64,000 nt of DNA. It comes from Burkholderia pyrrocinia. Its GTDB lineage: Bacteria; Pseudomonadota; Gammaproteobacteria; Burkholderiales; Burkholderiaceae. The translations under genes and the position numbers were made by a program. The stretch spans positions 2,046,001 through 2,110,000 of the forward strand of contig NZ_CP070978.1 in the NCBI RefSeq assembly GCF_018417535.1. The letters run 5' to 3'. Shown here piece after piece: positions 1,580 to 39,161 of the stretch; the first letter of the stretch is position 1, and every line of letters begins with the position of its first letter. The notes under the pieces were generated by a model. That model was given only the letters and a program-made list of their open reading frames with translations. It did no database searches and was not told the DNA's origin.

Positions 1580-1621
1580 AACGTGCGCCGGATTGCGATG
1601 CAAATCTGTACGGTGACGTAC
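1580..1621 (-). promoter_or_regulatory. Composite palindrome element A (GTACG-N4-CGTAC plus downstream box)
   Basis: Positions 1608-1621 read gtacggtgacgtac, a perfect 5-4-5 palindrome. On the minus strand, exactly 19 nt after it, comes GCGCACGTT (around 1580-1588). It lies between the divergent slipin and HicB-like genes. The same palindrome with the same kind of downstream box occurs at five other intergenic places in the window. The 5-4-5 geometry is that of Crp/Fnr-family boxes; which regulator binds is inferred, not shown. Confidence 0.6.
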
Positions 1622-1847
1622 CCGGACAGGGCTACGGAGCGGCCGCGGTTGTGAGTGATACGCAAAGCCGGCGATATCGAATCTCAACGAGAGGCGCTCT
1701 CGCGCTCGTTGCGCCGATTTCCGGCAAGCCGCGATGCGAACCTGCCTGCATGAGGGCGGATCCCTGAAGATCGTTCTCTAGCGTACCGACACGCGTGGCC
1801 CCGGGACACACAATGATCGGTGTCATACAGGAATCCCGGAGCCGATC

Positions 1848-2270
1848 GTGGAATACCCCATTTTTATCACCCGACAGGAAGGCTCAGGCTATCGCGGTTG
1901 GCTACCGGATTTTCCTGGCGTGGACGTGGAGGGCGACTCGTACAGCGAGCTGGCAAACGCCGCAAACGATCGGGTCGATGCACTGTATGACCAATGCGCG
2001 CGCCTCGTCCCCTCCCCGACAACGGACATGACGGCATTGCAGGCGTCTTGTATCGACGACGGCGACGGAATCTGGAGGTTCATCGATATTGCCCGGCCGA
2101 CGTCGTGTTCGGTGCTGGTCTTGCTATGCCTCCCCAAGGAGCTCGTGGAAAAAATCGATGCGGTGGCGAAATCGCGCCATATAAGCCGCGAAGCGTTGGT
2201 GGCCGAGTGTACGAAAGGAATTGGCGTACCCGCATCGCGGTCTTCGTGCCACGAACTTGTCCTGGCGTAG
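1848..2270 (+). CDS. HicB-like protein, orphan copy A
   Basis: This 140-residue protein begins MEYPIFITRQ and continues YRGWLPDFPGVDVEGDSYSE, the partial RNase H-like fold of HicB antitoxins (residues 1-50). The C-terminal half has LCLPKELVEKIDAVAKSRH, a helical segment like the DNA-binding or dimerising tail of HicB proteins. The start is GTG with GGAG 6 nt upstream. The paralogue at 38517-38969 starts with ATG at the equivalent position, which supports the choice. No HicA toxin reading frame is adjacent to either copy, so it is an orphan and may act as a regulator rather than an antitoxin. It is divergent from the slipin gene and shares its promoter region. Confidence 0.75.
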   Translation: MEYPIFITRQEGSGYRGWLPDFPGVDVEGDSYSELANAANDRVDALYDQCARLVPSPTTDMTALQASCIDDGDGIWRFIDIARPTSCSVLVLLCLPKELVEKIDAVAKSRHISREALVAECTKGIGVPASRSSCHELVLA

Positions 2271-2378
2271 CTGGCGAACGCGACTCAGCGGATTCATCTG
2301 CCCGGTTTGCGTCGCTTCACCGATGCGGGAGAGCGTTGCAGGCGCCGCTTGTCGTAATGGGCAACGCGTCAAAGTAAA

Positions 2379-2399
2379 AAGCCGGCGCTTGGCCGGCTT
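2379..2399 (-). terminator. Rho-independent terminator
   Basis: A stem of eight pairs (aagccggc / gccggctt) with a 5-nt loop is followed on the minus strand by TTTTTAC. It sits just beyond the stop of the minus-strand gene at 2466-2669. The plus-strand HicB-like gene ends about 110 bp away and may also use the hairpin. Confidence 0.7.
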
Positions 2400-2465
2400 C
2401 GAATTCCGCGTTGCTAAGGCGGCTCCACGTTCTGTTTGAGATCGAGGAGATTTACTACGCGTACG

Positions 2466-2669
2466 TTACTGGTTCGACAGAAAACCCATGCCCAGACGTT
2501 TCCTTGCATCGGAAATACGTTGCTTGGGCGTGACGGCTTTCCACGAAAAGGTATGGCTTCTTGGCCACTCCGGATGAACAACGGGCATGCCATCGTCGGC
2601 CGCGCGTGCGTCCGCCTGTTCCTGTTGCCCCTCCTGCGAATTTTTTTCTCGTTTCGGGTGATCGTTCAT
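2466..2669 (-). CDS. 67-residue hydrophilic hypothetical protein
   Basis: This small protein (MNDHPKREKNSQEG...) is strongly charged in its first 30 residues and carries a C-terminal segment, KQRISDARKRLGMGF. It has no membrane segment or signal peptide. The ATG at 2669 is preceded by GGGAG. It is followed by a clear terminator and preceded, 192 bp upstream, by composite element B, so it is a complete transcription unit. I do not recognise the family. Its place under the shared element suggests a stress-related role, by inference only. Confidence 0.6.
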   Translation of the reverse strand: MNDHPKREKNSQEGQQEQADARAADDGMPVVHPEWPRSHTFSWKAVTPKQRISDARKRLGMGFLSNQ

Positions 2670-2833
2670 CAACAGGCTCCCTCAAGAAACCGCGTTTCGT
2701 CATGGATGGGCTTGCGCCGCCCGAGTCGAGATAAAACGGCGCAAGCGAGTCGGATTGCGACGGCCCACTTCGATCACGGCGTTTCCATCTCCATGAAGTC
2801 TGCGGCCGATCTGCAGTCTGTGCGTCATGTACC

Positions 2834-2875
2834 ACCATGCGCCTGCGGGCTTCGACAGTCGGTACGCTGCCGTAC
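2834..2875 (-). promoter_or_regulatory. Composite palindrome element B
   Basis: Positions 2862-2875 read gtacgctgccgtac, a perfect GTACG-N4-CGTAC palindrome. On the minus strand CGACTG follows directly, and GCGCATGGT starts 19 nt after the palindrome. It lies upstream of the 67-residue gene at 2466-2669 and downstream of the Crp/Fnr gene. Confidence 0.6.
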
Positions 2876-2917
2876 GGACCGGATGGCATGAATAGGCGCC
2901 TGGCCTCGATGCCGGTT

Positions 2918-3637
2918 CTAAAGGCGTTTCAAATCAGGGAGCAAGCGGTCGAATTCCCGCCTGACCACGCCGTAGCATTCGCACACACGCTTTTCAAGCC
3001 CGGCGCGATCCAGTACCTCGATGTGCCCGTAGTTATACCGGATCAACCCGGCATCCTGAAGTTTCAGCGCGGCTTCCGTCACGCCCGATCGTCGGACACC
3101 GAGCATGTTGGCGATCAGCTCCTGCGTCATTTTCAGTTCGCTCGATGGCAGGCGATCGAGGCTGAGCAGGAGCCATCGACAAAGCTGCTGATCGATCGAG
3201 TGATGTCGATTGCATACGGCTGTTTGCGCCATCTGGGTGATGAGTGCCTGGGTGTAGCGCAGCAGGAGCCGCTGCATCGAACCGCCTCGACGGAACTCGT
3301 CTTTCAGGATGCGCGCATCGAGTCGGTAAGCGTGTCCTGCGCTTTGGACGATCGCGCGGCTCGGGGTCGTTTCGCCCCCCATGAACAGCGCGATGCCGAT
3401 CAACCCGTCGTTGCCGACGATGGCAATTTCGGCCGACGAACCGTCCTCCATCACGTACAACAGCGAGACGATGGCTGTCGTCGGAAAATAGACATGACTG
3501 AGCGCACCACCCGACTCGTACAGCACCTTTCCCAACGGCATGTCGACCAGCACAAGCTGCGGCGAAATATGCGCGAAACCTTCTGGCGGCAAGGCTGCGA
3601 GCAGATGATTTTCAATCGGAAAGGACTGCCCCGACAT
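2918..3637 (-). CDS. Crp/Fnr-family transcriptional regulator, copy A
   Basis: This 239-residue cytoplasmic regulator has an N-terminal cNMP-binding-type beta-roll (about 15-130, including MPLGKVLYESG and MEDGSSAEIAIVG) and a C-terminal winged helix (about 165-215). It has no N-terminal cysteine cluster, so it is not an oxygen-sensing Fnr with an iron-sulphur centre. The recognition helix region reads RRSGVTEAALKLQ, unlike the Crp or Fnr consensus, so a non-standard operator is expected. A near-identical paralogue lies at 17852-18571; the two are almost the same over their C-terminal two thirds. The ATG is preceded by GGAG. Element B lies 40 bp beyond its 3' end. The effector is unknown. Confidence 0.9.
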   Translation of the reverse strand: MSGQSFPIENHLLAALPPEGFAHISPQLVLVDMPLGKVLYESGGALSHVYFPTTAIVSLLYVMEDGSSAEIAIVGNDGLIGIALFMGGETTPSRAIVQSAGHAYRLDARILKDEFRRGGSMQRLLLRYTQALITQMAQTAVCNRHHSIDQQLCRWLLLSLDRLPSSELKMTQELIANMLGVRRSGVTEAALKLQDAGLIRYNYGHIEVLDRAGLEKRVCECYGVVRREFDRLLPDLKRL

Positions 3638-3702
3638 AGGTCGCTCCTGCAGTGATTGCGGCCTCTACCCAACGCGAATCGAAGCCGCGAAGCGTCATCG
3701 GC

Positions 3703-3951
3703 TCAAGACTCGCACTCGCGAAGCAGACGTTGCGCGAGGATCTTGGCGTCTTCGAGCGCGAGATCGTACTGCTCCCGATCGGAATCGGTCTGGTATGGGG
3801 GATCATCGTTCGGCCCCTCGTTGGTGCGGCGCAGATACACATAACCTCGGTACAGACCATGCGCAGATTCCATCACACGAATGCGTGCGAAGTGTGTTTT
3901 GGTACTGAATGTGAGATCGTCCATGATGCCTATCGGCGTGTGTTCAATCAT
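3703..3951 (-). CDS. 82-residue hypothetical protein
   Basis: This small soluble protein has a beta-rich middle (MESAHGLYRGYVYLRR) and an acidic helical C-terminus (EQYDLALEDAKILAQRLL). The ATG at 3951 is preceded by GGAG at good spacing; a shorter start at 3924 (MDDLTFST) is possible. It lies between the Crp/Fnr gene, 66 bp downstream, and the nitroreductase gene, about 120 bp upstream, all on the same strand, and may be cotranscribed with them. I do not recognise the family. Confidence 0.65.
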   Translation of the reverse strand: MIEHTPIGIMDDLTFSTKTHFARIRVMESAHGLYRGYVYLRRTNEGPNDDPPYQTDSDREQYDLALEDAKILAQRLLRECES

Positions 3952-4069
3952 CCTAGCACTCCGGGTGAAATCGAACGGATGCGGTCGAATCCGGACAGGT
4001 CACCGGGAAGCCGGCAAGGACGATCCTTGCGGATATCCCCTCGCCAGGATCGATGTGCGAGCTTTCGCG

Positions 4070-5668: not shown

Positions 5669-5917
5669 GTCCCCCTCGGCCCCGGAATACCCGCACACGC
5701 GACTGTACAAAACCGGATGGCTCGACGTTGAAGCGCGGCCGTCATCACGTCGTGGAATCCGGTGCGCGTTTTCCGGCACGCTGGTCGCCCTTCAGGTGTC
5801 TTCGAACGCATTCGGGCCGAACGATCAGCGGTTCCGACGCCAGCAGACAACTACCTGCTGCTCGTGCAGATCGGAAGGAAGGCGCACGTCGGGTGCGTGC
5901 GCAAACGGGGATCTCTC

Positions 5918-6184
5918 TTACGAGATCGTGTACCTGTTCTGGGGACCGCCGTTGTAAAGCTCTCTGGCGAGCCCCAGAATCCGGTCGCGGTTGCGGTCGA
6001 AGGCCGCAAGCAACGCGGGCTCGCTGGAATCCATGTCGGCGTTCAGTTTCGCCAGCATCGCATCGTCGACCAGAAAGGTAATCTCGCGGGAATTGTCGTA
6101 GCCCCAGAAGCACACACAGTGTCTGGACATGTCGTAGGAGCGACTGGGATTAGGAAAGTTGAGTGCCGCGTCGCTTTTTCCCAT
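5918..6184 (-). CDS. DUF1488 family protein
   Basis: This 88-residue protein has the pattern FPNPSRSYD, then CVCFWGYDNSREITFLV and an acidic helix, which fits DUF1488. It is small and soluble, of unknown function. The ATG at 6184 is preceded by a strong AGGAGG. It begins immediately after the stop codon of the 61-residue gene upstream (TAGATG), so the two are translationally linked. Confidence 0.82.
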   Translation of the reverse strand: MGKSDAALNFPNPSRSYDMSRHCVCFWGYDNSREITFLVDDAMLAKLNADMDSSEPALLAAFDRNRDRILGLARELYNGGPQNRYTIS

Positions 6185-6907: not shown

Positions 6908-7063
6908 TCAATGCTTATGGTGCATCCAACCCATGTGATGGGCATCAAGCCACTGAACCATCCCTTCGCCCTTGTGGTCGCGCAGGTAACGTAGCGCCAG
7001 CATGACCACGATGGCCAATACAACCGCCAGGCCAACCACAAAGCTAATCATCGACTGAGTCAT
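6908..7063 (-). CDS. 51-residue single-span membrane protein
   Basis: This short gene encodes one transmembrane helix (SFVVGLAVVLAIVVMLALRYL, residues 7-27) followed by a short, His-rich cytoplasmic or periplasmic tail ending in HHMGWMHHKH. The ATG at 7063 is preceded by AAGGAGG at ideal spacing, which is the main reason for calling it. The His/Met-rich tail could bind metal, by inference. It is not related to any neighbour I can identify. Confidence 0.6.
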   Translation of the reverse strand: MTQSMISFVVGLAVVLAIVVMLALRYLRDHKGEGMVQWLDAHHMGWMHHKH

Positions 7064-7729: not shown

Positions 7730-7949
7730 TATGCGTCGTGCCGTTGTCCGGACACTTCGACGTCCGCTTTGCATCTGCAGGCAACCGTTTCGCTGGTCCG
7801 ATCGGTCGTCGAGTGACAGGCAACGTTTTGTGTCTGGATGCCCCGCTGTTCCGAGCAGCGCCTGGTGACCGGCGAACCATGCCAGCGATCAAAACGGCAG
7901 CACGACGGCGGGCTCGACAGTCTCTTGTGCGTATGCGCGCGGTGCCCGG

Positions 7950-8447: not shown

Positions 8448-8568
8448 GGAAGACACCGTTTGTATGGGACCGGATGAGCCGAGGGTATCGACGCGAGGCC
8501 GCGGCACCCGTGCCGGAGAAAAGCGCAGCGATCGCCGGTCGCATCGCACGTCGGCGATCGCGCTGCGT

Positions 8569-17851: not shown

Positions 17852-18571
17852 ATGCAGGACAACCCGCCCATTACCGAAAATCACCTGCTTGCCGCGCTGC
17901 CGGAAAACGAGTGCGCCCACCTCGCCGCACACCTGACGCTCGTCGAGATGCCGTTGGGAAAAGTGCTGTACGAGTCGGGCGGCCAGCTTCATCACGTCTA
18001 TTTTCCGACCACGTCGATCGTTTCCCTGCTTTATGTGATGGAGGACGGCTCGTCCGCTGAAATCGCGATCGTCGGCCATGAAGGCATGATCGGTGTGTCG
18101 CTGTTCATGGGAGGCGAAACGACGCCGAGTCGAGCCGTCGTGCAAAGCGCGGGGCAGGCCTACCGGCTCGACGCGAGCATCCTGAAGGAAGAATTCCGGC
18201 GCGGCAACGCGATGCAGCGCCTGTTGTTGCGCTATACCCAGGCGCTCATCACGCAGATGGCCCAGACCGCGGTGTGCAACCGGCATCACTCGATCGATCA
18301 GCAATTGTGTCGCTGGCTGCTGCTCAGCCTCGACCGCCTGCCCTCGAACCAGTTGCGCATGACGCAGGAGCTGATCGCCAACATGCTGGGCGTGCGCAGG
18401 TCGGGCGTGACGGAAGCGGCATTGAAGCTGCAGGATGCGGGTCTCATCCGCTACAACTACGGCCATATCGAGGTGCTCGACCGGCCGGCGCTCGAAAAGC
18501 GCGTGTGCGAATGCTACAGCGTGGTCAAACGCGAATTCGATCGCCTGCTTCCCGATCTGAAGCGACTCTAG
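17852..18571 (+). CDS. Crp/Fnr-family transcriptional regulator, copy B
   Basis: This 239-residue protein is a close paralogue of the regulator at 2918-3637. It has the same beta-roll (MPLGKVLYESGG, MEDGSSAEIAIVGHEG) and the same winged helix with RRSGVTEAALKLQ, followed by an identical LIRYNYGHIEVLDR segment. The N-terminal 25 residues differ most. ATG at 17852 follows AGGAG. Because the recognition helices are identical, both copies should bind the same operator, perhaps integrating different signals through their different N-termini. It stands alone between gene remnants and the convergent PRC-barrel gene. Confidence 0.9.
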   Translation: MQDNPPITENHLLAALPENECAHLAAHLTLVEMPLGKVLYESGGQLHHVYFPTTSIVSLLYVMEDGSSAEIAIVGHEGMIGVSLFMGGETTPSRAVVQSAGQAYRLDASILKEEFRRGNAMQRLLLRYTQALITQMAQTAVCNRHHSIDQQLCRWLLLSLDRLPSNQLRMTQELIANMLGVRRSGVTEAALKLQDAGLIRYNYGHIEVLDRPALEKRVCECYSVVKREFDRLLPDLKRL

Positions 18572-18684: not shown

Positions 18685-19110
18685 TCAGGCTACCCAGTAC
18701 GGCGTCCGGTTGTAGTACTGGTGAAGCGACATTCCCCACTGCGATTGCGTCATCACCGGCCAATGCTCGTCGTCGAAGCCCGGGGTGCCTTTGACATGCG
18801 CGCCGGTCACATCCAGATGGAAACATTTGTCGTCGATATCGTATTTCATCGCACTCCACGGAATGGCGCAAAGCATCTCGCCCGCTCCTCCGCTGGAAGC
18901 AACCGCATAGGCAATTCTGCCGTGGTGCAAATCGAGCACGATGTCGAAAACATTGCCAATATCCTCGCCGTCCGACGCGATGATCTTGCTGCCCTTCAGG
19001 ACATCCGCGGTCCTGACCATATGACCGGGTTCATCGACGGCGTCGCGTTCGACAAGCCTGCCCCCGTTGCTATCATCCCCAGATCGATTGGGGGTGTGGA
19101 GCATCCTCAT
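18685..19110 (-). CDS. PRC-barrel domain protein
   Basis: This 141-residue protein has a PRC-barrel domain at about 35-110 (RTADVLKGSKIIASDGEDIG, NVFDIVLDLHHGRIAYAV) and a C-terminal aromatic tail (WGMSLHQYYNRTPYWVA). PRC-barrels bind RNA or protein partners; in this type of small stress gene the exact role is unknown. The ATG at 19110 follows GGAGG. The composite element C lies 110 bp upstream. A two-domain relative is at 20649-21434. Confidence 0.85.
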   Translation of the reverse strand: MRMLHTPNRSGDDSNGGRLVERDAVDEPGHMVRTADVLKGSKIIASDGEDIGNVFDIVLDLHHGRIAYAVASSGGAGEMLCAIPWSAMKYDIDDKCFHLDVTGAHVKGTPGFDDEHWPVMTQSQWGMSLHQYYNRTPYWVA

Positions 19111-19191: not shown

Positions 19192-19234
19192 AACGCTGCG
19201 CGCACAGGCATCGGAAGTCGGTACGGTTCCGTAC
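19192..19234 (-). promoter_or_regulatory. Composite palindrome element C
   Basis: Positions 19221-19234 read gtacggttccgtac, a perfect palindrome. On the minus strand it is followed by CGACTTCC and, 19 nt after the palindrome, GCGCAGCGT. The PRC-barrel gene starts 110 bp downstream. This copy and the CsbD copy are the most alike of the six. Confidence 0.65.
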
Positions 19235-19626: not shown

Positions 19627-20648
<1,022 letters not shown>

Positions 20649-21434
20649 ATGTTGCGAAGCATCCGAAGGTTGCACGGAGACACCGTTCGAGCGAAGGACG
20701 GCGATATTGGGCACATCCACCAGGCCTACTTCGACGATGACAACTGGTGCATCCGCTACCTCGTCGTCGAGACGGGCGACTGGCTGCACGACAGGCAGGT
20801 GCTGGTCTCGCCGTATTCCGTCACGCATGCCGATCCCGAAACCCGCACGCTATACGTCAGCCTCACTCAACAGCAGGTGAGAGACAGCCCGAACGTGGAC
20901 ACGCACAAGCCGGTATCGCGCCAGCACGAGATCGAGTACCTGCGTTACTACAACTACCCGACTTACTGGGGCGGCCCCAACCTTTGGGGGATGGGCGCGT
21001 ACCCGGCTTTCGATCCCGCCGGGCCGTCGCAGGACCCTGAAGCGGGCGATCCGCTTTTCTCGCGCACCGCGCCGGCAAGCGCAGCGGCGGATACGCATCT
21101 GCGCAGCACCGGCGAGGTCGACGGATATCGGCTCGAAGCCACGGACGGGCATATCGGTCACGTGTCCGACTTCATTTACGACGATGAAGCCTGGGTGATC
21201 CGCTATCTGGCGATCGACACGTCGAGCTGGTGGTCGACCGGCAAGGAAGTGCTGATCGCGACGCACTGGCTCGACCAGGTGGACTGGTCCACGGAAACGG
21301 TGTCGGCCACGCTCACGCGCGATGCGATCCGCCGGAGTCCTCCATACGACGACTCGCAGCTCGTTCATCGAAGCTACGAGATCGAGTTGCATGAGTTCTA
21401 CGGCAAGCACGGCTACTGGAACGGAGACCGATAA
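20649..21434 (+). CDS. Two-domain PRC-barrel protein
   Basis: This 261-residue soluble protein has two PRC-barrel domains, at about 5-80 ([21 protein letters not shown] then [12 protein letters not shown]) and about 155-235 ([21 protein letters not shown] then [12 protein letters not shown]), each followed by a short H-E-I/L-E-Y/L tail. The linker is Pro/Ala-rich. The ATG follows AGGA. Element D lies 167 bp upstream, and the transketolase gene follows after about 80 bp on the same strand. The molecular role is unknown. Confidence 0.85.
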
Positions 21435-23992: not shown

Positions 23993-24346
23993 GGCAATGC
24001 TCCAGTCGTCGTGAGGATCGGGCGAACAGTCTATGACGAGGCACAGCGCCACTCTGCCCGCTACCGTACATCGCATGCGTGCCGTTTCGGGTACGCGTTC
24101 CCGACCGTTTCAGCCGCAGGTACGCGTCGCTGCGATCGCAATGGTCGTGCCCGGTCCTTTGTCCGCCATCGGACAGACGCCGGACCGGCTCGCTGCGAAC
24201 GTGGGACGATCGGCGCGATACTGTGCGACGAGTGCGGGGCACCGACGCCCCGTCCGGTGCGCGCCGCGTACAGCCTCCGCGACGCCACATGGCGACCTGC
24301 AACCGAAGCGCGGCGAGCGCGACGTTACTCATGCGGGGTATGCAAA
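23993..24346. other. Intergenic leader of the antiporter gene
   Basis: No gene is convincing. It contains one half-site of the palindromic element (CGTAC near 24066) but no full copy. Confidence 0.3.
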
Positions 24347-26139: not shown

Positions 26140-26499
26140 TTACAGCGACTTGAGCCTGGTGACCTTCGTGCCTTCGAGCGTCACGCCGGCCATCAACCCG
26201 TTTTGTTCGTTAACCCGATCGAACCGGTCTTGGTGCCGTCATACCCTACGGTACTGCCGCCGACGCGCAGCGAGCCTCACCATACCGACTGCCGACGAAG
26301 AGACCGGCCGCGATGACTGACGGGAATATCAGCAGCACATCGCGTGCCTTGCCGGCGAGTTCACGCGAGCCTTTGGCGGTCGTGTAAAGGCGTCGACGCC
26401 TGCATCAATGGTGTGACGTTTGCCGGTCTGGTGGCCACGGGCGCCGGATGCGCCGGTCGTCAGGCCGATAGCCAGGAACGATCCCGGCACACATCCCAT
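26140..26499 (-). pseudogene. SYLF (YSC84-type) lipid-binding lipoprotein, frameshifted
   Basis: Pieces of a SYLF-domain protein occur in successive frames: TIDAGVDA, then LYTTAKGSRELAGKARDVLL followed by IFPSVIAAGLFVGSRYGE, then SLRVGGSTVGYDGTKTGSIGL, and finally GLMAGVTLEGTKVTRLKSL and a stop. At least two frame breaks and a missing middle (360 bp against about 570) make it non-functional. The start at 26499 gives a signal-peptide-like beginning (MGCVPGSFLAIGLTTG). SYLF proteins are usually phospholipid-binding stress lipoproteins. Confidence 0.82.
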
Positions 26500-26637
26500 A
26501 GAAATATTCGCCGCAGCATGATTCGCCCCGGATGGCTCGTGGATATCCCTGATGCTGCACACAGGCGAATACGGGACGAAAGCGTACCAAGCGTGTAAAA
26601 AAGACAATATGGACAACCCGTCTTCGCGCCGATTCGC

Positions 26638-26679
26638 GTACGGCATCGTACCGACTTCCATCACGATGACGCGCAGCGT
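26638..26679 (+). promoter_or_regulatory. Composite palindrome element E
   Basis: Positions 26638-26651 read gtacggcatcgtac, a perfect palindrome followed by CGACTTCC. GCGCAGCGT starts exactly 19 nt after it (26671-26679). The CsbD-like gene starts at 26786, about 107 bp beyond the box. Confidence 0.65.
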
Positions 26680-26785: not shown

Positions 26786-26962
26786 ATGAACAGGGATCAG
26801 GTGAGAGGCCGCATCGCGGAAGCGCAAGGCAAACTGAAGGAAGTGGTCGGCAAGGTCATGGGAAATCGAATGACCAGAGTGAAGGGCAAGGTCGAGCAAG
26901 TCGTCGGAAAGACACAAGCGTCATTCGGCGACGCGAAAGAGAAATTCAAGAAGCGGCCGTAG
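26786..26962 (+). CDS. CsbD-like stress protein
   Basis: This 58-residue hydrophilic protein (MNRDQVRGRIAEAQGKLKEV then a repeat GKVEQVVGKTQASFGDAKEKF) matches the CsbD family, a general stress protein first noted as a sigma-B target in Bacillus. It is rich in Lys, Glu and Gly. The ATG at 26786 follows AAGGAG. Element E lies upstream, so it belongs to the inferred regulon. Confidence 0.88.
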   Translation: MNRDQVRGRIAEAQGKLKEVVGKVMGNRMTRVKGKVEQVVGKTQASFGDAKEKFKKRP

Positions 26963-29446: not shown

Positions 29447-29665
29447 CTATTTCCCGACCTGATTGCCGACAACCCCGCCGACGGCCGCACCGCCCACCGT
29501 GCCCAATGCACTGCCGCCCGTCAGGACTGCGCCGGCGACGCCGCCGACACCTGCCCCGATCACGGTATCCGTTCCACGGCGAGACATACCGCCGCAACCC
29601 GCCAGCACGGCAATCGTCATGGTGACTATCGCCATCTCGACTGCCGCGGAATGTAGCTTTCTCAT
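29447..29665 (-). CDS. Glycine-zipper (OsmB-like) lipoprotein
   Basis: This 72-residue protein has a signal peptide with lipobox VLAGC (Cys at 24) and then a glycine-zipper membrane segment (VIGAGVGGVAGAVL then ALGTVGGAAVGGVVG). It resembles osmotically inducible OsmB and small outer-membrane lipoproteins. AGGAG precedes the ATG. It lies between the desaturase and glucan synthase genes on the same strand, about 90 bp and 160 bp away. Confidence 0.85.
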   Translation of the reverse strand: MRKLHSAAVEMAIVTMTIAVLAGCGGMSRRGTDTVIGAGVGGVAGAVLTGGSALGTVGGAAVGGVVGNQVGK

Positions 29666-29826
29666 GATCATCTCCTCGGGTTGCCGCTGCGCCGCCCGAT
29701 CCGGCACGACGCACGGAAGCCCATGCGCTGACATCCCGATGAAATTCGGGACGTCGGTTCATGATGGGCGGTGAATTGCGCGCAGTCCGTCCGCTAACGT
29801 ACCGGCCCGGATGCCAACCTGCCGCC

Positions 29827-32800
29827 TCACAAAAGCACCGCCTGTGCAGCCCCCAGCGTCACGACCACGCTGTGACGCCGACCGTCGTCCACGAGCCGCA
29901 CCGCCGCTTCGCCGGCGGCGAGCCGCACGCCATCCACGACGAGGCGGGACACGCCGCCGCTGACGTCGTCCGGATTCTCGACGACGATGTCGTAGTGCGA
30001 CGCCCCGTGGCACAGCGTTGCCCTGAAACCCGGCCAGGATCGCGGTATGCACGGTTGAATGGACAGCATGTCGCCGTGCCTGCGCAGGCCTAGCAGACCT
30101 TCGACGCCCGCGCGATACAGCCAGCCCGCCGAGCCGGTGTACCAGGTCCATCCGCCCCGGCCGACATGCGGCGCGACCGAATAGACGTCGGCCGCGACCA
30201 CGTATGGCTCCACCCGATAGCGATTCGCGCCGCTGCGCGTGCGGCTGCGATTGACCGGATTGAGCAGCGCGAACAGCTTCGCGGCGCGATCGCCATCACC
30301 CATTTGCGCGAACGCAAGCACCGACCACGTGGCCGCATGCGTGTACTGGCCGCCGTTTTCCCGGATGCCCGGCGGATAGCCCTTGATATAACCGGGATCG
30401 ACCGGCGAACGATCGAACGGTGGCGCGAACAGCAGCGCCAGGCCATCGTCGCGGCGGATCAGCCGCGCTTCCAGCGCGTCCATCGCCCGCGCGGCGCGCG
30501 CCGGGTCCGCCGCGCCGGACAGCACGCTCCACGACTGCGCGATCGCGTCGATCGAACATTCGGCATTGCCGGCCGAGCCGAGCGGTGTACCGTCGTCGAA
30601 GTAGCCGCGCCGATACCACTCGCCGTCCCATCCCGCATCGGCGAGCGCGTCGCGCAACGCGCCGGCGCGCGTCGACCAGCGCGCCGCCAGTTCGCCCGAG
30701 CCGCGCGCCGTGGCGAGCGGGGCGAACGCCGTGAGCGTCGCATGCAGGAACCAGCCGAGCCAGACGCTTTCGCCCCGCCCGGCCTCGCCGACCCGGTTCA
30801 TGCCGTCGTTCCAGTCGCCCGTGCCGATCAGCGGCAGGCCATGCTCGCCGACATGCGCGAGACTGGACTCCAGCCCGCGCACGCAATGCTCGAACAGCGA
30901 CGCGCTCGTTTCCGAGATGCGCGGGATGAAGAACGCGTCCTGCTCGTCGGCGGCCAGCGGTCGCCCGTCGATGAACGGGATCGACGCATCGAGAATCGCC
31001 CGGTCGCCGCTGACGTCGACGTAGTGCGCAACCGCATGGGCAAGCCAGACGCGGTCATCGGAGATCCGCGTGCGTACGCCGCTGCCGCTTTCCGGCAGCC
31101 ACCAGTGCTGCATGTCGCCCTCCGGAAACTGGCGCGCCGCCGCCCGCAGCAGATGCTCGCGCGTCAGGGCCGGGCGGGCGACCGCGAGCGCCATGCCGTC
31201 CTGCAACTGGTCGCGAAAACCGTACGCGCCGCTGGCCTGATAGAAGCCCGCACGCGCCCAGATCCGGCTCGACAGCGTCTGGTACAGCAGCCAGCGGTTC
31301 AGCATCAGATCCATCGCGCGGTCCGGCGTCTCGACCTGGATCGCGCCGAGCGTCTCGTCCCAGAACGCCGTCACGGCGGCGAATATCGCGTCGAGATCCG
31401 CCTGACGGTAATGCGCGATCAACTGTCGCGCCGTTGCCGCATCGGCGCCTTCGCCGAGCAGCAAGACGATTTCCACGACACCGCCGGGTTCGAGATCGAC
31501 CGTGGTCTGCAACGCGGCACACGGGTCGAGCCCGGCGCCGACCCGGCCCGACAGCGGCGACGCGCCGACGCTGCCCGGAAACCCGGCGGGATCGCTCAGG
31601 ACACCATTGCGGCCGATGAACTCGCGCCGGTCCGCGCTCCAGGAGGTTTGCAGACCGCATAGATCGGCGAACGCCACCCTGCCGCGATACGCTTGACTCC
31701 AGTCATTGCGGGCAAACAGCGCGCCGGTGGGCGGATCGATCTCGCTCGCGGTGTGCGGCGCCGCGACGCTGCGCGACGCGCCCAGCGCCCACTCCGCATA
31801 GGTTGCGACGGACAGCCGGCGGGTCCGGTCGGACAGGTTGCGCAAGGTCAGGCGGGAAATCTTGACGGGATCGGCCAGCGGCACGAACTGCAGCAATTCG
31901 ACAGCGACATCGGCGGCGGTATGCGCAAACCGGCTGTAGCCCTGACCATGACTCGCGACGAAAGGGGTCGCGCCCGGCGCATCCTCGCCGATCGAGCCCG
32001 CCTGGGGCCCCCAGCGCACGCCGGTCTCGTCGTCGCGAACATAGAACACCTCGCTGGGCGGATCGGTGACCGGGTCGTTCGACCACGGCGTCAGCGGATG
32101 CTCGCGGCTGTTCGTCACCCAGGTATAGCCGCCCCCCTCCGCCGACGCCAGGAAACCGCACGATGGATTCGCGACGACGTTGACCCACGGCATCGGCGTG
32201 CATTGACCGGGCTGCAGGATCACGACGTATTCGCGGCCGCCCCGCGCGAAACCGCCGATGCCGTTGAAGTATTCGAGACCGGCACCGGCCTGCGCGCCCT
32301 TCGGCGGCGGCAACGCAGGCGGCAACAGCGGCGCTCGCGCGGCATCCGGGCGGGCGGGCAGCGGCGAAGCCGCGAGGCGCCGCAACTGGTCCACCAGCCG
32401 GCCATTGCGCGCGGCGAGCACGGCTCGCGCGACCGACGGAAACAGCGCGCGCGCCGCTGCCGCCATCAGGTCCTCGCGCAGCACGAAAATACTGCCGCAC
32501 CCGGCTTCTCCCGGCGGCTGTCGGGCCCGCACCAGCCCCTCCAGCGCAGCCTGCAAATCCTGCACATACGACGCCGCGCGCTCGTTGATGATGACCAGAT
32601 CGACCTCGAGCCGCTTCATCCGCCAATACTCGTGCGCGCGGATCAACTGCCGCACCATGGCGATGTGCTCGATGTCGTCGATCCGCACCAGCAGGATCGG
32701 CAGATCCCCCGATACGCCATGCGTCCATAGCGGCGACGCGCCCACGCCGCCCGCCGCCGACACCGCCGCCGCATGGCGCAGCAGCGCGGCGGAACCCGGC

Positions 32801-35800
32801 CGCATCGACGCATCGCTGTAGAGCATGTATCCGGCCAGCTGCTGGAACAACGCGGCCTCGTCGAGGCTCACCGCGCTATGCCGCAGTTGCACCTGCGCCT
32901 GGGTCCACGCGAGCATCGCCGCACGCGCGAACGACTCGCCGTCGCGATGCTTGTCGACCAGGTCGAGCAACTGCGCGCGCGAATCCGCGACGATGGTCCA
33001 GTAGACGATGCTCGCCTTCGCGCCCGGCTCGATGCGCAGCCGCTGCCGCAACGTGAACGCCGCGTCCAGCACCGTGCCTTCGGAAGCGCTCAGCGCACGC
33101 TGTTCGGCCAGCGCAAGCGGCAGGCGAACGCTGCGCCCGCGTCCGATGAAGCGCAATCGATCGGTGTCGAATTCTTCCGCGCCGACGGTTTCGCCGGACG
33201 TCACCGCCAGATGGGCGGCCCAGACCTCCGCCTCGTTCGGCGCGCGCTTGCGCCGCGTCGCCAGAATCGCGCCGGACGCCGGCACGTACTCGGTCTCGAT
33301 GAACAGTTTCGAGAACGCGGGATGGGCGTGATCGGCGGCGGGCGGCGCGAGCACGATTTCCGCGTAGGACGTGAATTCGATCACGCGGGCCCGGGTGCCC
33401 GCATTGGCCACCGACACCCGCCGCACCTCCGCGTCGTCCTCGGCGGATACCACCACCTCCAGCGACGTCGTCAACGTGCCGTCGCGACGCACGAACTCGG
33501 CGCGATCCTCGGTGAACGTCACTTCGTAGCTGTCCGGCACCACGCCGGTGGGTTGCCACGTGGCCGACCAGACGTCGCCGTTCTCGGCGTCGCGCAGATA
33601 CAGATAGCTGCCCCAATCGTCGCGCGTCGCGTCTTCCCGCCAGCGCGTGACGGCCAGATCGTCGCGACGGCTGTAGCCGGAACCCGCGGCCGTGAGCATC
33701 ACGGCGTAGCGGCCGTTGGACAGCAGATGCGTGACGGGCGCGGGATCGTCCGCCGACAGCAGATGCCGCGCGACGCCGGCATCGATGCCGTGCATCCTGC
33801 CCGCGGGGCTCGCGTCGACCCGCGGCCGCCCTGCCGCGACCCGGCCCGGGACCCGCTCCTGCAACAGCAGCTCGGTTGCGCGGACAGCCGGCTCGCCGTG
33901 GAAGAATGCGCGAATGCGCCCGCCCAGCAACGCATTGGCGATCGACACGATCGACATGCCCTGGTGATGCGCCATGAACGCCCGCACGATGGCAACCGGC
34001 ATGCCTTCCGGCACGCGCGCGGGCGTGTAGTCGAGCGCTTCGTAGAAGCCGAAGCGCCCGCTCGCGCCGGCCGCGCGCAACCGCTCGAAGTTGCGCGCGG
34101 CGGCGTCCGGCGCGACCATCGCCGCGAGCGCGGTCGCATAGGGCGCGACCACCAGATTCTGGTCGAGATCGCGCTTGAGCCCCAATTCTGGCACGCCGAA
34201 GCTCGAATACTGATAGGTCAGCTCGATGTCGCGCGTGTTGTACGCCGATTCGGACATGCCCCACGGCAGGCGCAGGCCGTCGCCATAGGCGATCTGCCGA
34301 CGCACCACGAGGTGATTGGTGCGCGCGAGCAGGCTGCTGTCCGGCGCGCGCATCACCAGCGACGGCATCAGGTATTCGAACATCGATCCCGACCACGAGA
34401 TCAGCGCCGCGCCGTGCCCGATCGGCGTCGCCAGGCGACCGAGCCGGAACCAGTGCCGTGCCGGGACATCGCCCTTCGCGATCGCGACGAAACTCGCCAG
34501 GCGAGCCTCCGACGCCAGCAGGTCGTAGTTGCCCGGATCGAGCCGTCCGTCAGCCACCGCGTAACCGATCGACAGCAGATTCCGCACCGGGTCGAGCAGA
34601 AAGCCGAACTCCATCGCATAGGCCATCTGCAACGCGGTATCGGCCAGCGCATGAAGCCGCTTGTTCAACACGTCCGCTTCGTCCGGCGTGCGCGTCGCGT
34701 CGCGACAATGCCCCTGCACCGCGTGCTCCAGCGCCTGCGCCCAAAACAGCACGTCGTCGACGTCGCCGCCCCGCACCCGGCCGACGTCGTCCATCAGCGC
34801 GCGCGCGACATCGGCGACCGTCGCGGCGAGGATCGTGATCGCGGGCCATTCCGGTGCGGCGCCCTCCCCGGGCGGCGCGGCGAGCGTCTCCTCCAGCTCG
34901 GTCGCGGCCCGCTCGAATTCGCCGTGCAAGGTCGTCCGGGCATCGCCATCCCGGCACACTGCCTTGCGCAACAGCGCGAGCGTGTCGTCGATCCCTTCAT
35001 ACGCGGCCTGCCGCCCCACGCCAACGGGTTGATTCGCCCACGCTCGGCAACCGTTGCCGAGCGCGATCAGGTGGCCGGCGAGATTGCCGCTGTCGACCGA
35101 CGACACATACCTCGGCTCGAGGGGCCGCAGGTCCCGCGTGTCGTACCAGTTATAGAAATGACCGCGATAGCGCTGCATCAGCCGCATCGTCGCGAGGGTC
35201 TCCTCCAGCCGCGACACCGCGTCCAGCGTGCCAAGCCAGCCGAACTCGCGGGCGCTGACGGCAGACAACAGGTACAGCCCGATATTGGTGGGCGAAGTCC
35301 GGTGCGCGACAACGGGCTTCGGGTCCTCCTGGAAATTGTCCAGCGGCAGCATCTGATCGTCGGCCGTCACGAAGGTCTCGAAATAACGCCAGGTCCGGCG
35401 CGCGTCGCGCCGCAGTTGGCGTGCATCGTGCGGGGCCACCGCCAGTTCGCCCGCCGGCCGCGGTGCGCGGCTCAGCCAGTAGGCGATCGCCGGCGCAGCG
35501 AGCCAGACCAGCGCGAACGGAACGGCCAGCCAGCCCGCATGATGATCGAAGCGCCAGCCCGCCATCAGGCTGACAGCCGCGCCAAGCAGCGCGAGCGTCA
35601 CGCCGCCGCGCATCTGCAGATAGGTGAACGCCAGGGTCCGCCGGTCGCGCGCGCCGGCTTCGGCCGCCGTGATCCATTCGAGCAGATGGCGACGGCTGAT
35701 CCCCACGCGAAACAGCGTGCGCGCGATCGCGTCGCCCATCGACCACGCCTGCTGCGGCAGCATGACGATCGACAAGCCGAACCGCGTCAACGCGAACCGC

Positions 35801-38454
35801 AGCTCCGTCGACCACGCATAGAGCACGCTGCGCGTGGTCATCTTGACGTGCGTGCGCCGCCAGCGCGGCACCAGTCCACTCAATACGGGCAACAGAAACG
35901 GCAGCGCGATCGTCACCAGCACGAAGGCGCTCCAGGCGATCGACACGGGGAGCGGCAGCACCCATCCGGCCAGCAGCGCGATCAGCATGGCAGGTGCCGT
36001 GAGCGTGCGGCGCAGGTTGTCCAGCATCTTCCAGCGGCCGACCGCCGTCAGCGGTTCGTGGCCGAAAATCAACCACGGCAGGAGCTGCCAGTCGCCGCGC
36101 GCCCATCGGTGCAGGCGTCCCGCCGCGACGTCGTAGCGGGACGGCGACGCTTCGACGACCTCGATATCCGACGCCAGCCCGGCCCGCGCGAAAATGCCTT
36201 CGAACAGATCGTGACTGAGCACCGTGTTCTCCGGCACGCGGCCGGCGAGCACCGCCTCGAACGCGTCGACGTCGTAGATGCCCTTGCCCGCATAGGAGCC
36301 TTCGTCGAACAAATCCTGATAGACATCCGATACGGCCGACACGTAGGGATCGATGCCGTGCGCGCTCGACGACACGCGCTGGAACAGCGAGCCCTCGTCG
36401 CCGCTCGCGAGGGACGAAGTCACGCGCGGCTGGAGCACGCCATAGCCTTCGACGATGCACCGGCTCGCCGAGTTGAATACCGGCCGGTTGAGCGGGTGCG
36501 CCATCTTGCCGACCAGGCGGCGCACGGTATCGCGCAGCAGCCGCGTATCGGCATCGAGCGTGATCACGTAGCGCACGTCCGGCGGCACGCACGGCGGCCG
36601 GCCTTCCGGCGCGATGAACGTCGTGTCCGATGCCCCGCGCAGCATCCGGTTCAGCTCGTGCAGCTTGCCGCGCTTGCGCTCCCAGCCCATCCAGCACCGT
36701 TCGCCGTCGTTCCACACGCGCTTGCGGTGCAGCAGCAGAAAGCGCTCGCCTTCGTCCGGCGCCGCCGGATAGAGACGATTCAACCGGTCGATGCCCGCCA
36801 CCGCGGATGCCAGCAGCCCGTCGTCGCTGTCGGCGTGCGGGGTGGGCGCATCCACCCAGTCGGAGAGCAATGCGAAGTAAAGCGCCCCGTTGGGGCTTGC
36901 CAGATGATGGATTTCCAGTTGCTCGATCTGCTCGGTGAGCGCCGCTTCCGTCGTCAGCAGCACCGGCACCGCGACCAGGGTGCGCAGGCCCGGCGGGATG
37001 CCGTCGAGCAGCGCGAGGCCCGGCAGGATGCTGGCGCCGATATCCCTCATTACCGCGCGATTGACGAGCGCGACTGCGGCATCCAGCGCGGGCAGCAGGC
37101 CGGCGAGGCCGAGCCAGATCATCCAGTGACCGGGCGGTTCGACGCGCGTGAGCCACGCCAGCATGCCCGCCAGCAGCAGTGCGACGATCAGCCCGATACG
37201 GCCGAGATAACCGCCGAGACCGGCGTGGCGTGTCAGGCGCCGTAACCACAACGCAACGGGCGGCCGATAGCCGATCGCCGCTTCGAGCGCGGCGCGGCCG
37301 TCCGCCAGCAGGTAGTAACCGGGGTCCGCCTCGCGGCCCGGCACCGCGCCGGCGGCCGGCGCGCGGCTCGCACCCTGCGCCGCCGCATCGGCGACGACGC
37401 GGCGGGCAATCTCGAGCTCGCTGACGGGCGCGCCGCGGGCAAGCGCTTCAACCGCGTCGCGATACAGGTTGCGCGTGGGGAAATCCATCTCCGCGAAGCC
37501 CGGGTGGCTGCGCAGCACCTGATCGACCAGGCTGATGCGCTCGAACAGATCGGTCCAGTCCACCTCCGAAATCAGCCGCATGCTGGTGATCACGTTGCGC
37601 ACGGTCAGGCTGGCGGCGCCCTGCTGATGGTTGACGGAGGCGACGATCTGGTCCGGCGTCGCGCCGCGCGCCGCCAGGTGCAGATGCAGCCACGCCAGTG
37701 CCGGCGCAACAGCCGGATCGGGATCATGCAGCCGCTGAATCAACTGCACCGCGAACGCATCGTGCAATACGGCCTGCGCATAACGGGCGACGAGCGGCTC
37801 CGCCTCCACCCGCGCCTGCCCGCCTTCGCCGAGCAGGCGATCCGCGAGCGCGTCGGCGTCGAGCCGCGCGCGCCGGTCGTCGATGATCTGATCCGCGAGC
37901 CGCCGCAGGTTTTCGATCAGCACGATCCTCAGCGTGATCGCCACCGCCCACAGTTCGCCGATCGTCAGCGGTTCCACGGCCTGATAGGCAAGCATGAAAC
38001 GGCATAGCGCATCGGGATCGAAACGACTGTCGGTATGGGCGACGAATGACCAGTTGATCCCGAACACGCGCGGATAACCGGCGAACGGACCGTTGCTGAG
38101 TTTGGGCAATTGCCGGTAATAGCGAGGGGAGAGATCGTCCCGAATCTGCCGCACCTGTTCCGCGACAAGATAGTAGTTGTCGAGCAGCCACTCTGCCGCG
38201 GGCGTGATTTCTTCGCCGCGCGCGTCTGCGGCCACCGTGTTCCGGTAGGCCTTCAGCAGATGATCCGCGTTGTCCTTCAGCCGTGTCGCCAGCGAGGGGC
38301 CCGAGGCCACCCCGGGCAACACCTTCTGCGCGCGAGCCAGGCTGCCCGCATGCTGCGCCAGTCGCTCCTCGCCGAAGAACTCCTCGCGAATCGGCCGGGC
38401 ATTGCTCCATGGCGATGTCCGGCGTCGAGAAACACGCGCAACGCGAATCTTCAA
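29827..38454 (-). CDS. ndvB: Cyclic beta-1,2-glucan synthase (NdvB-like)
   Basis: At 2,875 residues this is a full-length multidomain inner-membrane enzyme that makes cyclic beta-glucans for the periplasm (osmoprotection, virulence, antibiotic tolerance). Order: N-terminal helical region; membrane helices about 418-470; GT84 glycosyltransferase with VITLDADTRLL (about 630); more helices about 815-860 and 945-1000; a glucoamylase-like domain (YNWYDTRDLRPL about 1100); two sugar-binding supersandwich domains; and a C-terminal GH94 phosphorylase domain with TGDWNDGMNRVGE (about 2545). The start is a TTG with a strong AGGAGG. A 1,490-codon antisense frame is a composition effect. It probably forms a unit with the lipoprotein and desaturase genes downstream. 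Confidence 0.93.
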   Translation of the reverse strand: MKIRVARVSRRRTSPWSNARPIREEFFGEERLAQHAGSLARAQKVLPGVASGPSLATRLKDNADHLLKAYRNTVAADARGEEITPAAEWLLDNYYLVAEQVRQIRDDLSPRYYRQLPKLSNGPFAGYPRVFGINWSFVAHTDSRFDPDALCRFMLAYQAVEPLTIGELWAVAITLRIVLIENLRRLADQIIDDRRARLDADALADRLLGEGGQARVEAEPLVARYAQAVLHDAFAVQLIQRLHDPDPAVAPALAWLHLHLAARGATPDQIVASVNHQQGAASLTVRNVITSMRLISEVDWTDLFERISLVDQVLRSHPGFAEMDFPTRNLYRDAVEALARGAPVSELEIARRVVADAAAQGASRAPAAGAVPGREADPGYYLLADGRAALEAAIGYRPPVALWLRRLTRHAGLGGYLGRIGLIVALLLAGMLAWLTRVEPPGHWMIWLGLAGLLPALDAAVALVNRAVMRDIGASILPGLALLDGIPPGLRTLVAVPVLLTTEAALTEQIEQLEIHHLASPNGALYFALLSDWVDAPTPHADSDDGLLASAVAGIDRLNRLYPAAPDEGERFLLLHRKRVWNDGERCWMGWERKRGKLHELNRMLRGASDTTFIAPEGRPPCVPPDVRYVITLDADTRLLRDTVRRLVGKMAHPLNRPVFNSASRCIVEGYGVLQPRVTSSLASGDEGSLFQRVSSSAHGIDPYVSAVSDVYQDLFDEGSYAGKGIYDVDAFEAVLAGRVPENTVLSHDLFEGIFARAGLASDIEVVEASPSRYDVAAGRLHRWARGDWQLLPWLIFGHEPLTAVGRWKMLDNLRRTLTAPAMLIALLAGWVLPLPVSIAWSAFVLVTIALPFLLPVLSGLVPRWRRTHVKMTTRSVLYAWSTELRFALTRFGLSIVMLPQQAWSMGDAIARTLFRVGISRRHLLEWITAAEAGARDRRTLAFTYLQMRGGVTLALLGAAVSLMAGWRFDHHAGWLAVPFALVWLAAPAIAYWLSRAPRPAGELAVAPHDARQLRRDARRTWRYFETFVTADDQMLPLDNFQEDPKPVVAHRTSPTNIGLYLLSAVSAREFGWLGTLDAVSRLEETLATMRLMQRYRGHFYNWYDTRDLRPLEPRYVSSVDSGNLAGHLIALGNGCRAWANQPVGVGRQAAYEGIDDTLALLRKAVCRDGDARTTLHGEFERAATELEETLAAPPGEGAAPEWPAITILAATVADVARALMDDVGRVRGGDVDDVLFWAQALEHAVQGHCRDATRTPDEADVLNKRLHALADTALQMAYAMEFGFLLDPVRNLLSIGYAVADGRLDPGNYDLLASEARLASFVAIAKGDVPARHWFRLGRLATPIGHGAALISWSGSMFEYLMPSLVMRAPDSSLLARTNHLVVRRQIAYGDGLRLPWGMSESAYNTRDIELTYQYSSFGVPELGLKRDLDQNLVVAPYATALAAMVAPDAAARNFERLRAAGASGRFGFYEALDYTPARVPEGMPVAIVRAFMAHHQGMSIVSIANALLGGRIRAFFHGEPAVRATELLLQERVPGRVAAGRPRVDASPAGRMHGIDAGVARHLLSADDPAPVTHLLSNGRYAVMLTAAGSGYSRRDDLAVTRWREDATRDDWGSYLYLRDAENGDVWSATWQPTGVVPDSYEVTFTEDRAEFVRRDGTLTTSLEVVVSAEDDAEVRRVSVANAGTRARVIEFTSYAEIVLAPPAADHAHPAFSKLFIETEYVPASGAILATRRKRAPNEAEVWAAHLAVTSGETVGAEEFDTDRLRFIGRGRSVRLPLALAEQRALSASEGTVLDAAFTLRQRLRIEPGAKASIVYWTIVADSRAQLLDLVDKHRDGESFARAAMLAWTQAQVQLRHSAVSLDEAALFQQLAGYMLYSDASMRPGSAALLRHAAAVSAAGGVGASPLWTHGVSGDLPILLVRIDDIEHIAMVRQLIRAHEYWRMKRLEVDLVIINERAASYVQDLQAALEGLVRARQPPGEAGCGSIFVLREDLMAAAARALFPSVARAVLAARNGRLVDQLRRLAASPLPARPDAARAPLLPPALPPPKGAQAGAGLEYFNGIGGFARGGREYVVILQPGQCTPMPWVNVVANPSCGFLASAEGGGYTWVTNSREHPLTPWSNDPVTDPPSEVFYVRDDETGVRWGPQAGSIGEDAPGATPFVASHGQGYSRFAHTAADVAVELLQFVPLADPVKISRLTLRNLSDRTRRLSVATYAEWALGASRSVAAPHTASEIDPPTGALFARNDWSQAYRGRVAFADLCGLQTSWSADRREFIGRNGVLSDPAGFPGSVGASPLSGRVGAGLDPCAALQTTVDLEPGGVVEIVLLLGEGADAATARQLIAHYRQADLDAIFAAVTAFWDETLGAIQVETPDRAMDLMLNRWLLYQTLSSRIWARAGFYQASGAYGFRDQLQDGMALAVARPALTREHLLRAAARQFPEGDMQHWWLPESGSGVRTRISDDRVWLAHAVAHYVDVSGDRAILDASIPFIDGRPLAADEQDAFFIPRISETSASLFEHCVRGLESSLAHVGEHGLPLIGTGDWNDGMNRVGEAGRGESVWLGWFLHATLTAFAPLATARGSGELAARWSTRAGALRDALADAGWDGEWYRRGYFDDGTPLGSAGNAECSIDAIAQSWSVLSGAADPARAARAMDALEARLIRRDDGLALLFAPPFDRSPVDPGYIKGYPPGIRENGGQYTHAATWSVLAFAQMGDGDRAAKLFALLNPVNRSRTRSGANRYRVEPYVVAADVYSVAPHVGRGGWTWYTGSAGWLYRAGVEGLLGLRRHGDMLSIQPCIPRSWPGFRATLCHGASHYDIVVENPDDVSGGVSRLVVDGVRLAAGEAAVRLVDDGRRHSVVVTLGAAQAVLL

Positions 38455-38516
38455 GGCGCCTCCTCCGAAATGGCCGCACCGGCCGCCCAGGCTTCACGCC
38501 CGGCGCGCCCGCGCCG

Positions 38517-38969
38517 TCAGGCCGCTTCCGACAGCGATTTCGCGACGGGTTCGCCAAGCACCCCGCCGTGCTGCGCGGATCGGTCGGTGGCGTTCTCGCA
38601 CGCCATCGACACGAACGCATCGCGAGTCGTATGCAGCGCACTCGCCGTCCGATCGATGTCGTGCACGATGTGCTTCGGCAAGCACAGCTCGATCCGCACG
38701 GAACTCGACGTCATCCGGGTCAGATCGATATCGAAGAACCGCCAGATCCCGTCGCCGGCATCGACCTCCGACGCCTGCAATACCGACATGTCCGTAGTCG
38801 GCGGCGGAACGAGACGCGCGGACCGGTCATAGCGGGCCATGACCCGTTGCGCAGCGGCCGCCTGCAACTCGCCATACGAGTCACCTTCCACATCGACATC
38901 GGGAAAATCCGGAAGCGCGCCGCGATAGCGGGGATTCCGGTGCCGCGTGATATAGATCGGATATTTCAT
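38517..38969 (-). CDS. HicB-like protein, orphan copy B
   Basis: This 150-residue protein begins MKYPIYITRHRNPRYRGALP then DFPDVDVEGDSYGEL, the HicB-type fold, and has LCLPKHIVHDIDRTASALH in the C-terminal half. It is collinear with copy A at 1848-2270, including LVPPPTTDMSVLQAS. The ATG at 38969 follows GGGAG. No HicA is adjacent. It ends about 60 bp before the ndvB start on the same strand and is divergent from a slipin remnant across element F. Confidence 0.78.
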   Translation of the reverse strand: MKYPIYITRHRNPRYRGALPDFPDVDVEGDSYGELQAAAAQRVMARYDRSARLVPPPTTDMSVLQASEVDAGDGIWRFFDIDLTRMTSSSVRIELCLPKHIVHDIDRTASALHTTRDAFVSMACENATDRSAQHGGVLGEPVAKSLSEAA

Positions 38970-39147
38970 GAACCACTCCCGACAGTGGAATGTGACGAAC
39001 GTCATCGTGCATCGCGGCGGCTCGACGAGTCGGTACGCTGAAGAACAGTCTCCGGGGCACGTTTCGTGGTGCGCTGCCGGCCGTTCACACACCGGATCGC
39101 CCGATGCCGCGCTATCCGGCCAGGCAAGCGCAACGCGCTCGATCCAG

Positions 39148-39161
39148 GTACGGCACCGTAC
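39148..39161. promoter_or_regulatory. Palindrome element F (GTACG-N4-CGTAC)
   Basis: gtacggcaccgtac is a perfect palindrome between HicB-like copy B and the slipin remnant. Flanks match element A (TTTGCA, then GCGCACGTT), but the downstream box is 22 nt away instead of 19, on the side of the dead slipin gene. Confidence 0.55.

Follow-up and report, generated by a model that had tools for sequence, protein, structure and literature searches.

A palindromic promoter element before stress and envelope genes of Burkholderia pyrrocinia and its probable activation by a Crp/Fnr-type regulator

FNR recognises a box with the consensus TTGAT-N4-ATCAA. NtcA, an activator of the Crp family, has GTAN8TAC centred at -41.5 in combination with TAN3T, and one of its sites lies 22 nt from the -10 box (text portions of PMC3898017). 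In E. coli CRP, the first G of the half-site is contacted by Arg180 and the cytosine of the matching pair by Glu181 (text portions of PMC11253593). Crp/Fnr-family regulators have also been proposed for the lxa locus of B. cenocepacia (PMC4981469, in part), and an FNR-box-like motif has been reported for genes of this species that are induced at low oxygen (PMC4505428, in part). Literature searches by topic and by motif strings, partial in their coverage, gave no description that we recognised of the palindrome or the regulon presented here, and the motif is undescribed in the text portions of PMC4603805 (a TSS study), PMC3759415, PMC5234846, PMC8406202, PMC9733578, PMC6127331, PMC9060813, PMC4505428, PMC12531629, PMC3898017, PMC11253593, PMC5934665 and PMC4981469 that we covered.

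The element described here is built around the palindrome GTACG-N4-CGTAC and was analysed in a stretch of 64,000 nucleotides of the Burkholderia pyrrocinia genome, hereafter the window, which also encodes two Crp/Fnr regulators of one clade. It would define a new regulon under a known kind of regulator. In contrast to the NtcA site, the inner C4 and G5 of each half-site are fixed here too; the window protein scores 23.8 bits against the NtcA equivalog model TIGR03697, far from its cutoff of 244.95, and NtcA targets nitrogen genes whereas the predicted window targets are stress and envelope genes. With E. coli CRP the system shares the fold, a predicted class II geometry and a conserved Arg at 180, and base 3 of the half-site varies with residue 181 in the manner that the contacts of CRP would suggest (PMC11253593, in part). 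It differs from CRP in its half-site, which is GTRCG and not TGTGA, and in having mostly Glu at 185; the CRP operator TGTGA-N6-TCACA does not match a GTACG half-site with N4. The FNR box is not matched either, the half-site being GTACG, or GTRCG in distant taxa, and the first cysteine of the window protein is residue 142, hence an N-terminal [4Fe-4S] cluster is not expected. The kinds of stress and fermentation genes are similar to those of FNR/ANR and the lxa locus. A reading of the locus as an lxa counterpart was nevertheless set aside, as what is reported there is an FNR-box-like motif together with the FNR protein BCAM0287 (PMC4505428, in part).

The exact palindrome is present at all six places given in the original prediction (1608, 2862, 19221, 20468, 26638 and 39148). 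With at most one mismatch, the window holds nine palindromes where 1.49 are expected, a number reached in none of 100 shuffles. Across the whole genome (8.54 Mb, three contigs) the exact palindrome occurs at ten places, six of them within these 38 kb, and the reversed pattern, used as a control, at 19, so the motif is not common in the genome. Nor is it equally frequent in coding sequence, the outcome that would have made it a chance occurrence or a relic of duplication: two of the ten places, both beyond the window, fall inside strong ORFs (412 and 410 codons), and C3:735260 is ambiguous. The site at C2:1226455, also beyond the window and unlinked to it, is promoter-like, with TACCGT at 22 nt and a gene behind it that clusters with the PRC-barrel genes.

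Five of the six sites had been described as carrying a GCGCAnnGT box that begins 19 nt past the palindrome. The position of this box stands, and its identity is recast as a hexamer [CT]ANNNT at 22 nt plus the three bases preceding it (Table 1). We considered the box as a second protein site and dropped the idea, since it corresponds to [CT]ANNNT at the distance of a -10. The whole is most readily understood as a class II promoter in which a [CT]ANNNT -10 lies 22 nt past the palindrome and a 17-nt spacer separates this -10 from a CCGACT-like -35. If the 14-bp palindrome were centred at -41.5, it would span -48 to -35 and the hexamer would lie at -12 to -7. Directly after the palindrome, 97 sites from related loci show in their logo a conserved C, G and A/C, then mostly C and T, and this stretch reads as the CCGACT-like -35 with its 17-nt spacer; the position of the hexamer in the logo is fixed by construction, 22 nt having been a criterion in choosing these sites. 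We trained a weight matrix of 42 bp on 84 sites, all taken from other genomes; it gives the five spaced window sites scores of 32-44, against a maximum of 17.6 in a null of 20 simulated windows. It also finds one site that the first reading had overlooked, at 29761-29802(-), which has a relative of the same architecture in locus L089. Weaker matches at 24161(+) (17.0), 19993(-) (12.6), 24028(-) (12.3) and 1773(+) (10.7) all score below the null maximum and were dropped. The predicted leaders in the window measure 76-158 nt.

Table 1. Promoter elements, predicted target genes, decayed copies and regulators in the window
Feature	Position	Strand	Remarks
Promoter element	1580..1621	-	Palindrome 1608-1621; -10 CACGTT; score 35.3; predicted target slipin 595-1467(-), predicted start near 1573
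Promoter element	2834..2875	-	Palindrome 2862-2875; -10 CATGGT; score 34.7; predicted target 67-residue protein
Promoter element	19193..19234	-	Palindrome 19221-19234; -10 CAGCGT; score 41.6; predicted target PRC-barrel gene
Promoter element	20468..20509	+	Palindrome 20468-20481; -10 TAGCGT; score 32.1; predicted target PRC-barrel gene
Promoter element	26638..26679	+	Palindrome 26638-26651; -10 CAGCGT; score 44.0; predicted target CsbD
Promoter element, additional	29761..29802	-	C at base 3 of one half-site; CATCAT at 22 nt; score 25.8
Decayed element	39148..39192	+	Intact palindrome, but 3 nt more spacer than its relatives have; next to slipin remnant
Decayed element	26546..26587	-	One mismatch, altered spacing; score 11.7; upstream of broken Ysc84-type gene
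Slipin / Band_7 protein (predicted target)	595..1467	-	PF01145
67-residue protein (predicted target)	2466..2669	-	Same element precedes homologues in six other loci
PRC-barrel protein (predicted target)	18685..19110	-	PF05239
Double PRC-barrel protein (predicted target)	20649..21434	+	PF05239
CsbD-like protein (predicted target)	26786..26962	+	PF05532
72-residue glycine-rich lipoprotein (likely target)	29447..29665	-	Putatively OsmB-like, by eye; behind 29761-29802
HicB-like gene, first slipin/HicB cassette	1848..2270	+	HicB_lk_antitox
HicB-like gene, duplicated cassette	38517..38969	-	HicB_lk_antitox
Remnant of second slipin gene	39246..39414	+	Faced by the box side of 39148
Broken Ysc84-type gene	26143..26487	-	Fragments in several frames
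Crp/Fnr regulator, proposed binding protein	2918..3637	-	239 aa; helix residues GVRRSGVTE
Second Crp/Fnr regulator, same clade	17876..18571	+	87% identical (tblastn); same recognition helix

The slipin, the 67-residue protein, the two PRC-barrel proteins and CsbD remain as predicted targets, as originally listed. The HicB-like protein does not: the HicB-like gene at 38517-38969(-) lies on the side of site 39148 that has no hexamer, the box side facing the slipin remnant, and the weight-matrix scan of the window found no full element directed at the other HicB-like gene. The 67-residue protein has no Pfam or NCBIfam match. Elsewhere, the first genes downstream of the element are most often of the Ysc84 type (29), followed by PRC-barrel (15), slipin (9), acyl-CoA ligase (9), the 67-residue protein (7) and two CsbD types (5 and 4); these are the main clusters among 161 assigned sites of 175, and one or two members per named family were tested, the second CsbD type having been recognised by eye.

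Other features near these genes may be mentioned. Just left of the window, L225:5886-5927 carries GCACG-N4-CGTAC (one mismatch) with CATGCT at 22 nt, directed towards a 59-residue ORF at window positions 109-288(+). A 51-residue membrane peptide with the end HHMGWMHHKH is encoded at 6908-7063(-); its relative in L070 lies behind a full element, and the scan of the window found no strong element upstream of the window copy. An ORF of 2875 codons (TTG start) at 29827-38454(-), perhaps of the cyclic glucan synthase type, belongs to a family found in 15 of the 59 locus sequences discussed below.

The spacing is best judged in loci picked without use of the motif. We took 79 loci by their similarity to the Crp/Fnr protein 2918-3637 alone; they come from the best 80 matches listed and are not a random sample. 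Among 1024 half-sites combined with spacers of 2 to 8, GTACG-N4-CGTAC is the top palindrome in these loci, with 76 copies in 39 of the 79, ahead of a GC-only runner-up (62 copies, 37 loci); the exact palindrome is absent from the remaining 40, and the reversed control has a single copy. The hexamer [CT]ANNNT stands at 22 nt in 66 of the 76 palindromes, on one side or both (six on both), as against 2/62, 2/53 and 1/33 for the control palindromes CGGCG, CGCCG and CGACG. Counted by orientation, the hexamer stands at 22 nt in 72 of 152 cases and at 23 nt in 10, while the other offsets from 5 to 49 give 0-9 each.

The same distance recurs further away. For one-mismatch sites in 38 more distant loci, the hexamer is counted 37 times at 22 nt, whereas the other offsets average 2.1 and five control half-sites give 0-3 at 22 nt; with two mismatches the count is 66 against 8.2, and one shuffled control is likewise raised (41 against 21.5). 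Among 40 class-wide loci (40 of about 50 places listed, several regions coming from one genome), 36 of 130 orientations of GTRCG-N4-CGYAC have the hexamer at 22 nt, with at most 10 at any other offset; the exact GTACG palindrome is present there at seven places and GTGCG at 19, neither being the commonest palindrome. An offset profile from pattern-selected loci is biased, and our conclusion on spacing rests on the protein-chosen, distant and class-wide loci.

This fixed distance, found where the motif had no part in the choice of loci, favours the earlier proposal that a single protein-DNA complex occupies the element, and the constant 22 nt to the -10 likewise argues for the suggested class II arrangement, in which the palindrome is centred at -41.5. 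It also bears on how a bound protein would act. The site overlaps the -35 region, and a clade protein sitting there could be a repressor that blocks it. We consider this very unlikely: repression would not require the distance to the -10 to be constant, both the -10 and the -35 are weak, as in activator-dependent promoters, and 22 nt is the class II geometry. Our preferred reading, which we hold to be highly probable, is that of a class II promoter which would be activated by a dimer of the Crp/Fnr clade at GTACG-N4-CGTAC and is probably a sigma70-type one. Activation, the sigma factor and the transcription starts are inferred, as is binding by the dimer, for which we rely on co-localisation and a shift at base 3 of the half-site.

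Both Crp/Fnr proteins of the window contain PF00027 (cNMP-binding-like) followed by PF13545 (Crp-type HTH), above cutoff, and the predicted structure of the regulator has the CRP fold (pLDDT 89.8). C142, H145, H146, C153, C219 and C221 are invariant in 41 aligned clade members. Within the genus (65 genomes), the clade, at an identity of at least 83%, is present in 14 of the 15 genomes with consensus-type sites and in 2 of the 50 others, a count that leaves out five of 20 genomes (G017, G021, G035, G046 and G061) whose single matches lack the consensus tail; the unfiltered table reads 14, 6, 2 and 43 (p = 6e-8). The two clade holders without consensus-type sites (G014, G028) carry variants instead, in which base 3 is C or the spacer measures 23 nt. 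Within the family (398 genomes), 38 of 44 genomes with at least two pattern matches hold the clade compared to 40 of 354 others (p = 5e-25), with a clade threshold of E <= 1e-88 that leaves out relatives of 57-59% identity. Such relatives are the only ones in G076, G233, G287, G316 and G383, which have two or three pattern matches. Among genomes with at least four matches, 17 of 18 hold the clade, and the exception, G321, has a partial copy of 82%. G026 has one perfect element (L077:1231, reverse strand, near the end of a 160-kb contig) and no clade regulator. Among 38 regions retrieved through the motif and nothing else (tiny regions left out), only 16 contain a clade gene nearby, two of the 16 being partial. 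Because regulator and targets are often neighbours, part of this co-occurrence is shared inheritance of one island. Paraburkholderia xenovorans LB400 (L177, L184) and Cupriavidus necator (L169) are examples in which the clade lies close to the motif.

The half-site itself varies with the protein. In the 22-spaced sites of the 79 best-match loci, base 3 is G in 14 of 37 loci and C in none where residue 181 (CRP numbering) is Glu, while with Ser, Ala or Pro at this residue it is G in 0 of 42 loci and C in 17 (Fisher p = 5e-6 for G and 3e-6 for C); these counts take in sites of which one half or both have A. Exceptions come in once any base is allowed in both halves: among the 97 sites of the Ser/Ala/Pro loci two have G, and among the 55 of the Glu loci one has C. 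The other four half-site positions hardly vary in these loci. At the 40 class-wide loci, whose best matches are Glu in 39 cases and Gly in one, base 3 is A, G or T and never C, and other Glu-type family members that have sites likewise lack C at base 3. A quick tree built from 176 proteins, in which the helix was masked, places only one or two changes at residue 181, so this covariation is not independently replicated. A pair test of the shift, for which a single pair was usable, gave no support: G never followed the residue, and about one fifth of random pairings went the opposite way. We also observed Glu-type relatives (60-61%) in L305, L306 and L307 of genus g16 with T at base 3, for example GTTCG-N4-CGAAC, and the hexamer at 22 nt, which perhaps represent another specificity.

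Co-occurrence with a single Crp/Fnr clade and the shift between base 3 and residue 181 both favour the early suggestion that a Crp/Fnr paralogue is the factor. Regulators of the NarL/FixJ type likewise bind short palindromes, and a response regulator of this type, such as FixJ or those of the lxa locus, could bind the present one. In the cepacia complex, oxygen is sensed by the FixLJ system (PMC5234846, in part), and the lxa locus includes the response regulators BCAM0288 and BCAM0322 (PMC4981469, Table 2, in part). This is decidedly unlikely given that the Crp gene family is the most recurrent in 59 locus sequences (32, the next family reaching 16; 20 of the 59 regions were chosen with Crp positions already known), that loci chosen by Crp recover the motif and its spacing, neither of which was used in the choice, and that base 3 follows a Crp recognition residue.

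Another member of the Crp/Fnr family may be envisaged as the main user of the sites, either from the pair of 48% on chromosome 2 or from the FNR/FixK types. Two more Crp/Fnr paralogues, with identities of 48% and 39%, are divergently arranged at G000:C2:784698-787065 (L221). The 48% paralogue of the source genome has the helix GVRREGVTE, of the same type as that of the clade, and might bind a related site. Matches of 48-51% are present in 53 of the 65 genus genomes among the matches listed, many of them without the motif. It follows that factors outside the helix must matter, or that the clade assignment is too narrow. That such a paralogue is the main user appears very unlikely against this distribution, and the FNR-box-like motif of the B. 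cenocepacia low-oxygen genes is a different sequence (PMC4505428, in part). The clade encoded in the window stays the preferred binding protein.

The sites at 1608 and 39148 lie in duplicated cassettes of slipin and HicB-like genes that are paralogous in BLASTN (85% over 106 bp, 76% over 205 bp), and the worry that the element is a relic of duplication applies to these two of the six; the remaining window promoters align mainly across the element, and their flanks have no comparable similarity. At 39148 the gap between the palindrome and GCGCACGTT is 22 nt, as the original prediction had it. Intact relatives exist for both decayed elements, and the decay of sites beside dead genes fits selection on the promoter. 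That the sites are functionless relics of duplication, or a small mobile repeat, can practically be dismissed, although the duplicated cassettes speak for it: the other promoters have in common chiefly the element and not their flanks, elements beside broken genes have decayed, and the architecture is kept before different genes in many taxa, with a conserved spacing that largely contradicts such an origin.

Under the preferred reading, a dimer of the clade activator, of which the window has two copies, would bind the palindrome centred at -41.5, overlap the poor CCGACT-like -35 and help RNA polymerase to use the weak [CT]ANNNT -10, 22 nt past the palindrome and 17 nt past the -35. The regulated genes would be slipin, PRC-barrel, CsbD, OsmB-like and 67-residue protein genes in the window, Ysc84-type genes in relatives and, in other genomes, additionally acyl-CoA ligase, thiolase, alcohol dehydrogenase, decarboxylase, BON and transporter genes. 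The six sites form part of a switch, common to many genomes, that would turn on genes for stress and survival; it is most likely operated by a little-studied protein of the Crp/Fnr type, and sites matching it recur close to the gene of this protein in many beta- and gamma-proteobacteria. More tentatively, and with considerable doubt, one may imagine a widely conserved persistence regulon in beta- and gamma-proteobacteria, a proteobacterial counterpart of a dormancy regulon, in which the clade would sense redox state, a metal or a gas through its invariant Cys and His residues and its specificity would have been re-tuned in Burkholderiaceae by residue 181.

A Crp/Fnr clade found far beyond Burkholderia, of which we recognised no account in the literature covered by our searches, hereby gains a likely binding site, a promoter geometry and a list of candidate targets. 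Genes of obscure function (slipin, PRC-barrel, CsbD, Ysc84-type and BON), together with some metabolism genes of the acetate and polyester type, are brought into one predicted regulon. Finally, a single recognition residue may re-tune the DNA specificity of the regulator, which makes this family a testable case.
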